From Propionibacteriaceae bacterium (GTDB taxonomy: Bacteria; Actinomycetota; Actinomycetes; Propionibacteriales; Propionibacteriaceae), in assembly GCA_031262485.1 (NCBI GenBank), contig JAISHO010000043.1, positions 1 to 40,785 of the forward strand: a DNA stretch of 40,785 bases. The letters run 5' to 3'. A program made the translations under genes and the position numbers. A model generated the notes under the pieces. That model was not told the DNA's origin and did not search any database. It saw only the letters and a list, made by a program, of their open reading frames with translations. How positions within the stretch are numbered: position 1 is the first letter of the stretch; each line of letters starts with the position of its first letter. Below, in pieces: positions 36,847 to 40,417 of this stretch.

Positions 36847-38621
36847 TCGCCTCCGATCTGGCTCGCAGCGCCGAGGAATGGATCGCCCACGATCCCAGTG
36901 AGACGGATCGGGCGGAGTTGAGATCGCTCGTCGAGCGAGCCGACCATGATGAGGCGGCGGCCGGTGAATTGGCCGATCGGATGTCCGGTGACCTCCAGTT
37001 CGGCACCGCCGGTTTGCGGGGCGCGATGGCGGCCGGCCCGAACCGGATGAACCGGGCTGTCGTCATCCGGGCCGCCCGAGGGCTGGCCGATTACCTCCTG
37101 GCCGCGGCGCCTGACTGGCAGGGCGATCGTCGCCCGCCCCGGGTCGTCATCGGCAACGACGCCCGTCATCATTCGCGTGAGTTCGCGGTCGACTCGGCTG
37201 CGGTCATGACGGCGGCCGGGGTAGAGGTCCTGCTCCTGCCTGACCAGGTTCCGACTCCGGTGCTTGCGTTCTCAGTCCGTCATCTCGAGGCGGACGCCGG
37301 AGTCATGGTGACGGCGTCGCACAACCCGGCCAACGACAACGGATACAAGGTTTATCTCGGGGGGAGGAGTGTCACCGATCCTGAGCGCGGAGCTCAGATC
37401 GTTCCCCCGTATGACGGTCAGATCGCCGCCTGTATCAAGGCCGCTCCGCCCGCCGACGAGATCGATCGGGCTGTCTCCGGTTGGGTCGATCTCGGCCCCG
37501 AGCTGATCGAGGCTTATATCTCCGCCATCGTCGGAGCCCCCGGATCGCCGGGGGAGACGCCCGAGGCCCCGGCGGCGGCGTTGAAGATCGTCCACACCGC
37601 GATGCACGGTGTCGGTTCCCCGATCGCGCTGGAGGCGTTGCGCCGATCCGGGTTCACCGATATCACGACCGTGGCGGCCCAAGAGAAGCCCGATCCTGAT
37701 TTCCCGACAGTCGCGTTCCCCAATCCAGAGGAGAAGGGCGCGATCGATCTGGCGCTGGCCGAGGCGGTGCGAGTCGGCGCCGACATCGTCATCGCCAATG
37801 ATCCTGACGCCGATCGTTGCGCCGTCGCCATCCTCGACCCGAGAGCGGGGGAGAGCGGTGCTTGGCGCATGCTCCACGGCGACGAGTTGGGGTCTCTCTT
37901 GGGCGAGGCGATCGCCTCAGCGGAGTCGGCATCGCGACAGTCGGCCTCTTCGTCATCGGGTGATGGGGGAGCGGGGGTCATCGTCAACTCCGTCGTTTCC
38001 TCGCGTCTGCTCGCCCGGATCGCCGCCGCCCATGGTCTGCCGTATCAGCGCACATTGACGGGGTTCAAGTGGATGGGGCGTGTGCCCGGCATGCGCTACG
38101 CCTACGAGGAAGCGATCGGCTATTGCGTCCGCCCTGACCTCGTCCACGACAAGGATGGTCTCTCGGCCGCAGTCGAAATCGCCCGTTTGGCGGCCCGCCT
38201 CAAAGCCGCTGGCTCCACGATGTCCGGGCAACTCGACGATCTGGCGCGCCGCCACGGCCTTCACCTGACGAGCCAGCTGGCGGTGCGCTTCGCCAGCCTC
38301 GACGGCATCACTTCGACGATGAGGCGCCTCCATGACGCGCCTCCGTCAACGTTGGCGGGCCGACCGATCACCAGCGTCGTCGATCTCTCCGAAGGTTATG
38401 ACGGCTTGCCGCCGACCGACGGCGTCGCTCTCATGACAGCCGACGATGACCGCGTCATCATCCGTCCTTCCGGCACCGAGCCCAAGGTCAAGTGCTACCT
38501 CGAGGTGATCCTCCCCGTCGCCGAGGACGCGTCCTTCGACGATCTCACGGCGATCCGCCGCACGGCGCGGGAGCGCCTCGACGCCATTACTGAGGATCTC
38601 CAAGCGAATATTTTCGCTTGA
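36843..38621 (+). CDS. Phosphohexomutase-family enzyme, probable phosphopentomutase
   Basis: A 592-residue alpha-D-phosphohexomutase. [10 protein letters not shown] is near 57-66. The catalytic serine is in [21 protein letters not shown] near 153-173, the metal-binding loop in [10 protein letters not shown] near 319, [11 protein letters not shown] follows, and the phosphate loop [15 protein letters not shown] closes near 555. Length matches PgmB/PMM-type enzymes that often act on ribose phosphates. ATG overlap with deoC and the nucleoside context argue that it turns ribose- and deoxyribose-1-phosphate into the 5-phosphates; this is inference. Phosphoglucomutase or phosphomannomutase activity remains possible. 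Confidence 0.88.
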
Positions 38622-38634: not shown

Positions 38635-39082
38635 CCAAACCCATTTTCTGAGGGACAACCACGCACCTACTCATTTGCAAAAATATAGTTGCCAATATAT
38701 ATTGATGTTGTGCTGCTCTGAGCGGGCTAGGGCTGGTTTTGTCGACCCTTGTCGCTTTGAGTCGTATATGGCTAAGGGAAGCTATTTTATGAAATATTCT
38801 TCCCCATATCATTAAATGAGCTAGTTTCTGCTATCCCCTCCGTAGCAGAATTATCAATTGACGTTGACATCTTTTGCGATGAGGGTGACAGTTCTTTTGT
38901 AATTAATTATTTTCACAGTTTTTGGAATTTCTGTAAGTTCTGAGTAATTTTCATAACTGGAAATCACTCGAAGAATATCCTCTGATTTGGGAATATTAAT
39001 TGAAAATGTCATTCATATGATAAATATGAAGCCTCGTTGTAGGTGTCTCACGTTGTAATCTATATTTTGGGAGGAACCCACA
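38622..39082. other. AT-rich intergenic region without a supported gene
   Basis: These 461 bases are far richer in A and T than the genes to the left; the block 38881-38940 has 18 G+C of 60. I see no convincing gene. Minor structure includes a 12-base AT palindrome CAATATATATTG at 38693-38704 and a hairpin TTCTGCTA/TAGCAGAA at 38826-38850. The stretch before the next gene has several AT-rich -10-like words but no well-spaced -35. A GGGAGG ribosome site at 39069-39074 serves the gene that follows. Confidence 0.7.
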
Positions 39083-40360
39083 ATGCGGAAAATAAGACGA
39101 TCATTACTTGCATTGGCCGTAGCTTTTGCTATATCGTTAGCAGGGTTATTTGCATCTTCGGGAGTTGCTCATGCCGGAACTATTAGTGAGAATTTTCAGA
39201 ATGCCTTCGCCTCGTACATGAAGAAGCACAAAAGAATTGGGTCAGGGGATATTTCGATTACAAATCTTCAATGTCCAGCAGTTCCCATGTGGTTCGTTCA
39301 GAATTACACAAATTTCACTTATGGCAATGGACATGGGAAAGACGTTGTCAAGAATCTGGTCAACAAGAACCCTGGCAGAGGGCTTAGTGTTACGACAACT
39401 CCGAAAGCTCCTGCTGTGTATAGCGTTGCAGGTCGTGTAAAGGGATGGGGAGCTAGCGGCACAAAAGCGGAGGGCCATACCGGAGTCGTCCTCGAAGTTA
39501 ATGGGAATAAAGCTACGGTCCTTCACACAAGTGTGAGTAGCGAAAACACAGAGAAATTATCAAAAATTGAAGTTTTCCCGTTCCCCTTCGCTGGAGTCAC
39601 ATTTGTCAATCTTGGTTCCGGCTACACGGACAAGTCAAATCTCGACGGAGGAGCCTTTACCTGTAGTGGGAAACAATTCCCAGCCGGTCAACCTTCGACC
39701 CTTGGACACTGGGGGACTCTCAAAGTTGGTCAACAACTGGTTTCTCCCAACCGTCTGTATCGAATGGTCATGCAGCCAGACGGAAACCTTGTGATCTCCT
39801 CAAGCTGTGGGCCGATCTGGTCTTCAGGGACCAGCGGTTCAGGCGGCGATCGTGCCGTATTCCAAGCAGATGGAAATTTCGGGATTTACGCGGGTACAAA
39901 GTCAGTGTTCCACACCGCAACTAATGGGCTTAGTGCGACTCGACTTGGCTTGCAAAACGATGGAAATCTTGGAATCTATACCTCCAGCGGACGAGCAGTT
40001 TGGGGTGCTCTCAATGGTTATCTGGGCCACCGCCTTGGCGCAGGTTACAGCTTGTACGCAGGAGAGAAGATGTACTCAGCCGATCGTCGTTTCTCCTTAT
40101 CACTTGAAAACGGCAGCCTTGTCACACGGCAGGGAACAAAAGTGATATGGTCTTCGAATACTAATGGCTCTGGTGGCAATCGTGCCATTCTCCAGGGAGA
40201 TAGTAATTTTGGGATCTACGCAGGTTCAAAATCAGTATGGCACGTTGGGACGAACGGAACTGGAGCAACATATGCCGTACTACAAAATGACGGCAACCTT
40301 GGAATCTATACTCCTGGAAATAAGGCAGTCTGGGGAGCCTTCAACGGTCGCATGTATTAA
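39083..40360 (+). CDS. Secreted CHAP-like domain protein with two bulb-lectin modules
   Basis: A 425-residue secreted protein. A classical signal peptide with a basic start, hydrophobic core and AHA cleavage site ends at residue 31. Residues about 32-178 resemble a CHAP-type Cys/His amidase or endopeptidase: Cys64 in LQCPAVPMWFV, GNGHGKDVV near 81, and His132 in GHTGVVLEV. Two bulb-type (monocot mannose-binding) lectin modules follow at about 209-312 and 315-422. Each has three beta strands, and four of the six motifs keep Q-x-D-x-N-x-G-x-Y (Gln261, 291, 371, 401); the consensus Val is Gly. Base composition differs strongly from the neighbours, and an IS follows, indicating transfer. A cell-wall lytic or bacteriocin-like role is inferred. 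The ribosome site GGGAGG is 8 bases from ATG 39083. Confidence 0.8.
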   Translation: MRKIRRSLLALAVAFAISLAGLFASSGVAHAGTISENFQNAFASYMKKHKRIGSGDISITNLQCPAVPMWFVQNYTNFTYGNGHGKDVVKNLVNKNPGRGLSVTTTPKAPAVYSVAGRVKGWGASGTKAEGHTGVVLEVNGNKATVLHTSVSSENTEKLSKIEVFPFPFAGVTFVNLGSGYTDKSNLDGGAFTCSGKQFPAGQPSTLGHWGTLKVGQQLVSPNRLYRMVMQPDGNLVISSSCGPIWSSGTSGSGGDRAVFQADGNFGIYAGTKSVFHTATNGLSATRLGLQNDGNLGIYTSSGRAVWGALNGYLGHRLGAGYSLYAGEKMYSADRRFSLSLENGSLVTRQGTKVIWSSNTNGSGGNRAILQGDSNFGIYAGSKSVWHVGTNGTGATYAVLQNDGNLGIYTPGNKAVWGAFNGRMY

Positions 40361-40372
40361 TTAATCTCTTTA

Positions 40373-40417
40373 TTATTGGGGGTGTTGCTCGGTAATTTCG
40401 AGCAACACCCCCAATAA
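40373..40417. terminator. Perfect 19-bp hairpin after the lectin gene
   Basis: Bases 40373-40391 pair perfectly with 40399-40417 around a 7-base loop. The stem has a GC core (GGGGGTGTTGCTCG) and A/T ends. It follows the lectin stop by 12 bases and precedes the IS, so it probably terminates the lectin transcript and may block entry from either side. Confidence 0.75.

Follow-up and report, generated by a model that had tools for sequence, protein, structure and literature searches.

A predicted secreted protein joining a divergent CHAP-like domain to two bulb-type lectin modules in a Propionibacteriaceae bacterium

Tandem bulb-type lectins are best known as enzyme-free bacteriocins of Gram-negative bacteria. 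Albusin B of Ruminococcus albus 7 is described as a bacteriocin with a B-lectin domain and a peptidase M15 domain (PMC6240691), and the MMBL module is described as often lying within a larger protein, one of which, from Ruminococcus, had bacteriocin-like activity (PMC3585409). Here we analysed a gene in the window, by which we mean the whole 40,785-nt stretch of contig JAISHO010000043.1 from a Propionibacteriaceae bacterium. An earlier note on this DNA had read its product as a signal peptide followed by a CHAP-like domain and two tandem bulb-lectin modules, and that layout was borne out by the open reading frame (ORF), by Pfam, NCBIfam and PDB matches and by fold fits.

The gene at 39083-40360 is real: an unbroken ORF of 425 aa occupies exactly these positions on the + strand. 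By eye, residues 1-31 are Sec-type in form, with a basic start, a hydrophobic core and a cleavage region that reads GVAHA and then GT. The leader of the gene is 461 bases long with 37.5% GC. Taken with a terminator-like hairpin on the gene upstream, a ribosome-binding-site-like sequence and a hairpin past the stop codon, it suggests that the lectin gene may be transcribed on its own. The 3' hairpin may mark the end of the transcript; terminator-like sites in the stretch number 3 against 2.3 in shuffles, that is, they are not enriched. The features of the gene and its surroundings are as follows.

38601..38620, + strand: terminator-like hairpin on the final codons of the upstream gene, which ends at 38621
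39069..39076, + strand: ribosome-binding-site-like GGGAGGAA, with the ATG 6 nt further on (by eye)
39083..39175, + strand: signal peptide, residues 1-31, likely cleaved after AHA (by eye)
39176..39616, + strand: divergent CHAP-like domain, about residues 32-178 (Pfam CHAP at 6.4e-4, relatives L003 and L009, shuffle control)
39272..39274, + strand: codon of Cys64, the proposed nucleophile (invariant in alignments A1 and A2, matched in L188)
39476..39478, + strand: codon of His132, the proposed general base (invariant in A1 and A2, matched in L188)
39524..39526, + strand: codon of His148, third triad position by alignment, Glu in the other five of the six A2 sequences (compare the triads described in PMC4126393)
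39617..39703, + strand: linker, residues 179-207, a low-confidence region of the model
39704..40027, + strand: B_lectin module 1, residues 208-315, with motifs QPDGNLVIS, QADGNFGIY and QNDGNLGIY
40028..40357, + strand: B_lectin module 2, residues 316-425, with one degenerate motif, QGDSNFGIY and QNDGNLGIY
40373..40417, no strand: perfect 19-bp inverted repeat with a 7-nt loop, past the stop codon
40442..40785, + strand: first part of a repeated element cut short by the contig end, with an ORF from 40559

The lectin assignment is firm. The two modules share 52% identity, and PDB sequence matches to pyocins L1 and L2 and putidacin L1 had E values of 1.4e-20 to 7.7e-17. Single-module models fitted solved bulb-type lectins at 1.7-1.8 A at best, over about 99-110 columns, the remaining fits among the matches listed being 2-3.4 A or worse. 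From residue 211 the lectin part has a pLDDT of 79-92 per ten-residue block, dropping to 59 at the junction and to 47 over the final residues. These model fits and the sugar motifs place the modules with the bulb-lectin (B_lectin, or MMBL) fold, the Pfam B_lectin match itself (9.6e-7, 29.7 bits) being just under the gathering cut-off of 32.4. Among the sugar motifs (QxDxNxVxY type), Q, D and N are retained in five of six and Tyr in four of six. In four of the five that retain Q, D and N, Gly stands at the Val position, so the bound sugar may be one other than mannose, as we infer from the motifs.

Membership of the LlpA family itself was ruled out, both by the NCBIfam LLB_putidacin score (4.3e-34, 118.1 bits against a cut-off of 275) and by the additional N-terminal CHAP-like domain. 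A model over both modules fitted LlpA and pyocin L1 at 12-14.5 A only, and an LlpA-like placing of the tandem is therefore without support from the model.

The domain that precedes the lectins is a divergent one. The earlier note had named Pfam CHAP and B_lectin as the families to look for, and both match, each below its gathering cut-off (20.6 against 26 bits and 29.7 against 32.4 bits). For CHAP the E value was 6.4e-4 over residues 69-146, a match that begins past Cys64. We searched for relatives in samples of 197 genomes from the family, 391 from the order and 396 from the phylum, draws that overlap, and found CHAP-domain relatives in two other genomes, L003 (42%) and L009 (35%). Against Pfam CHAP, L009 passes with 39.6 bits and L003 narrowly misses with 24.3. 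A profile built from L003, L009 and five other CHAP domains gave the window domain 57.5 bits, a score reached by none of 2000 shuffles. When the profile was built from the five outside domains alone, the window domain scored 7.2 bits, which 11 of 2000 shuffles reached; on the same profile L003 also scored 7.2 bits, and L009 31.6. Because the outside-only profile gives just 7.2 bits, the CHAP assignment depends mainly on L009.

Two alignments were compared with the PDB: A1, made of the window domain, L003 and L009, and A2, made of six CHAP sequences including the window's. With the A1 profile the best match was the phage lysin 5d74 (E 8e-4), the others being at 0.26 or above. The A2 profile picked out entries for LytN, CHAP and PcsB (1.7e-5 to 1e-4), matches that are no independent test of the window domain because A2 holds clear CHAP domains. 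Profile-profile alignments to outside CHAP domains covered just 37 columns, round the His, with probabilities of 57 and 10. Two predicted models, one of the protein with 13 lectin alignment rows and one of the CHAP-like domain alone, neither of them including L003 or L009 (the only close CHAP rows), had a pLDDT mostly below 50 in the CHAP region, where we looked for the papain-like Cys-His geometry that the earlier note had asked about. The L003/L009 type is a rare CHAP subfamily joined to different partners: the relative follows a peptidase-inhibitor I36 domain in L003 (2-706) and weak FG-GAP-like repeats, under the Pfam cut-off, in L009/L155 (6520-7572).

Cys64 and His132 are invariant in A1 and in the six sequences of A2, and both are matched in a global alignment with the same-phylum protein L188, so that the window domain keeps, in conserved context, the Cys and His that are catalytic in the CHAP family. 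At the third triad position His148 stands where Glu is usual, as it is in the five other A2 members; this substitution was absent from the earlier note. By published account the third position is not as well conserved as Cys and His, a Glu134 to Ala change in LysK is described as strongly lowering activity without abolishing it, and the NlpC/P60 domain of Spr is described as having a Cys-His-His triad (PMC4126393). For these reasons His148 could act as the third residue. The substitution, with the weak CHAP score, would also suit a protein that has lost catalysis and serves as a binding or damping surface lectin, for instance an adhesin or glycan scavenger. Against this, Cys64 and His132 have been kept despite divergence elsewhere in the domain, and the partial activity of the LysK mutant and the Spr triad, as that source describes them, count the same way; we regard loss of catalysis as quite improbable. 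The window protein is a clean case for whether a Cys-His-His triad functions in the CHAP fold.

We propose the following model. The product would be exported by the Sec route and, after signal cleavage, would act as a secreted exo-enzyme. Held by its two bulb-lectin modules to a sugar that recurs on a bacterial surface, it would cleave peptide bonds in the peptidoglycan beneath with the CHAP-like domain, in which Cys64 would be the nucleophile, His132 the base and His148 probably the substitute for the usual Glu. It would most likely serve to lyse or inhibit Gram-positive neighbours. As an explanation of the whole locus, a secreted, lectin-anchored peptidoglycan hydrolase antagonistic to its neighbours has about an even chance of being right. 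Taken by its parts, a wall hydrolase of some kind is likely, and an antagonistic use is close to evenly balanced. What the analysis shows is the ORF, its domains, the conserved Cys and His, the foreign composition and the patchy occurrence; that the protein is catalytic, which sugar it binds, which bond it cuts and that it acts against other bacteria, as a bacteriocin would, are inferred. The lectin-guided wall hydrolase that the earlier note had favoured keeps its place as the best mechanism on domain content, the conserved Cys and His and fusion precedents, with a CHAP similarity that stays under the cut-off.

The gene appears foreign to its genome. At 0.486 its GC content is below the window's 0.647, and its GC3 is 0.44 against 0.58-0.87 in the other ORFs picked, some of which are perhaps not genes. 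Among 19 same-genus genomes (its own included), three had any protein match, and the whole length was present in its own only (1/19). Eleven other same-genus genomes have a pmm match, and in six of them we compared what follows this gene. In 4/6 of these stretches deoC adjoins pmm; the other two stretches start 226 and 702 bases ahead of the match to pmm. A gene that looks by eye like a nucleoside phosphorylase comes after pmm in 4/6 (L149, L151, L152 and L154). In the window, pmm is instead followed by the lectin gene and then by the repeated element, which lies at six places in the genome with 91-100% identity. Two of these six, one being this copy, have the whole stretch and four have about 115-196 bases. 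A 75-aa piece of the ORF from 40559 had no Pfam match; we take the ORF to resemble an IS256-type transposase, and the element may be an insertion sequence of that type. The low GC3, the presence in 1/19 genomes, the altered neighbourhood after pmm and the adjoining repeated element are most simply read as a recent gain.

Such a history bears on whether the protein could instead work on the producer's own wall, its lectins anchoring the hydrolase to the producer's wall polysaccharide for growth, cell separation or turnover. Most genomes of the genus should have a wall enzyme if it does housekeeping work, and this one is whole in just one of 19; the foreign GC3 and a neighbour after pmm unlike that in 4/6 same-genus stretches tell against it further. 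Several relatives speak for it. L007, a lectin and CHAP protein of the same family, bears LGFP repeats, which suit own-wall work and which we counted against antagonism; the N-terminal regions of L004 and L008 look Ig-like by eye (with no Pfam match to such repeats); and the lectin is fused to LysM in L169. It is also consistent with own-wall use that no immunity-like gene was seen near the lectin gene, on a contig that stops 425 bases downstream. Lectin-like bacteriocins are said, in the source consulted, to need no immunity gene (PMC6465234). Overall we consider an own-wall role possible and rather unlikely. Antagonism is the most likely use because the gene is a single one that looks recently acquired by one genome of the genus sample and because albusin B offers a precedent for the fusion.

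The low GC and the adjoining repeated element would also fit cargo of a mobile element or phage, that is, a lysis or wall-entry enzyme left as the remnant of an integrated element. A comparable setting was seen by eye in L198, where two lectin-hydrolase genes lie by a serine-recombinase-like ORF. Against this, endolysins seldom have a signal peptide such as the one read here. No CHAP-domain relative was found in the phage or plasmid collections, nor in viral contigs searched with short peptide patterns, and the window's unannotated ORFs, inspected by eye, included no recognisable phage gene. The whole protein matched 1 phage and 11 plasmid records, with the best places all within residues 178-424 (linker and lectins), and the A2 CHAP profile at E 1e-3 matched no ORF in 80 of 164 viral lectin loci plus 8 further loci. 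We judge mobile-element or phage cargo very improbable, and a phage endolysin was ruled out by the absence of CHAP-domain relatives from the phage and plasmid collections searched and, by pattern, from viral contigs. SOS control was likewise set aside, since no LexA-like site (pattern from general knowledge) lies upstream of or near the gene; the whole window has 4 such sites against 3.5 expected. A known defence protein was set aside for want of a PADLOC match.

The window protein has counterparts, as fusions of lectin and enzyme, among related bacteria. L188, from a same-phylum genome (G766), has CHAP followed by two B_lectins, the same domain order behind a signal-peptide-like start, and is 30% identical in global alignment; BLAST aligned it over residues 131-419 only, at E 2.8e-29. 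Its CHAP domain passes the Pfam cut-off (49 bits) and has Glu at the third position, unlike His148 of the window protein, and the gene adjoins a lectin-VanY gene. A unique architecture is ruled out by L188. The suggestion that the architecture may be undescribed is weakened by this protein and by the other fusions below. We found no paper on a CHAP and B_lectin fusion in the open-licence PMC literature searched. The earlier note had named many characterised homologues with an unrelated role as a case against its reading, and no characterised homologue of the full-length protein came to light.

In the family sample, 10/197 genomes (own included) had a B_lectin region at E <= 1e-10, and six of those ten had a B_lectin and a CHAP-like domain in one ORF (the window, L007, L004, L008, L119 and L006), counts that lean to this family because the search-profile rows L007 and L002 come from it. 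L007 has LGFP repeats, two lectins and CHAP; L004 and L008 have one lectin and CHAP; L119 has CHAP and lectin by home-made profiles only; and L006 is weak, with a Pfam CHAP score of 19.9 bits, under the cut-off, and escaped the home-made CHAP profile. In L004, L006 and L008 the lectins too score under the Pfam cut-off, and a seventh family genome (L002) joins two lectins to a peptidase M15. At the scale of the phylum, 22/396 genomes (own included) matched at E <= 1e-15. Pfam was run on 10 of the fetched loci; those passing the CHAP cut-off were L188, L181 (CHAP and one C-terminal lectin) and L168 (lectins, CHAP). L179 is a weak further case. The lectin stands before CHAP in L004, L007, L008, L168 and L119, and lectins are joined to M15/VanY in L002 and L167, the latter with VanY. 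Other partners are LysM (L169), tyrosinase (L175) and a metallopeptidase-like domain under the cut-off (L184), and in a Curtobacterium plasmid protein the tandem follows an S53-type-like peptidase (by eye). Being joined to CHAP, M15/VanY, LysM, tyrosinase and others, B_lectin is an accessory module of varied exoproteins in the phylum. The protein of L183, from a genome of the same class as the host, is 55% identical over 348 columns to the Streptomyces protein in L021, which suggests that the host and Streptomyces belong to one class.

Further B_lectin loci were seen along the way. In L198 (1015-5813, G766:C111), divergent lectin-VanY and CHAP-lectin genes flank a 263-aa serine-recombinase-like ORF, with a primase-like ORF further along (both ORFs by eye); this is perhaps a mobile element with two lectin-tagged wall enzymes, and we counted the pair for antagonism. 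Two genomes of the same family join a patatin-like phospholipase (by eye) to a B_lectin module (L010, 769-3261; L011, 16-2547), and in G064 several B_lectin ORFs of about 350-410 aa are clustered (L012-L019, contigs C25 and C164), an apparent local expansion.

If our reading of the window protein is true, it would be a sugar-aimed, secreted wall-cutting weapon in actinobacteria. Such a lectin-tagged wall-cutting weapon would be of the lysostaphin type. The same reading could account for the B_lectin and wall-hydrolase fusions found in several arrangements across the phylum. An actinobacterial family of lysin-type bacteriocins, in which tandem bulb lectins target a cysteine wall hydrolase that travels on mobile DNA, here with a Cys-His-His triad, is a doubtful extension of it.

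Set beside described systems, the lectin and enzyme fusion here is a variation on a theme present in related bacteria and not a new system. With the CHAP hydrolases (the LysK CHAP domain, LytN and the phage lysin 5d74) it shares the GH motif and the placing of Cys and His, and it differs from them by His148 for Glu, a score under the cut-off and the fusion to lectins. LlpA, putidacin L1 and pyocin L1 share the tandem of B_lectin modules, with 25-28% identity in the fold search, but consist of the tandem alone, whereas the window protein has an extra domain; the tandem arrangement in the window model, moreover, does not fit that of LlpA or pyocin L1 (rmsd 12-14.5 A). The Mycobacterium smegmatis LysM-lectin (4oit), which we take to be MSMEG_3662, is a B_lectin protein of an actinobacterium, with 36-39% identity in the fold search; it differs in being deposited as a LysM domain protein, and we know of no hydrolase domain in it. 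Albusin B, as far as its published description goes, is alike in being a Gram-positive bacteriocin in which a lectin is fused to a domain of a wall-enzyme family. Compared by description only, it has one B-lectin and then M15, and the window protein has a CHAP-like domain and then two B-lectins: the same pairing of B_lectin with a wall-enzyme-type domain, with another enzyme family and another order.
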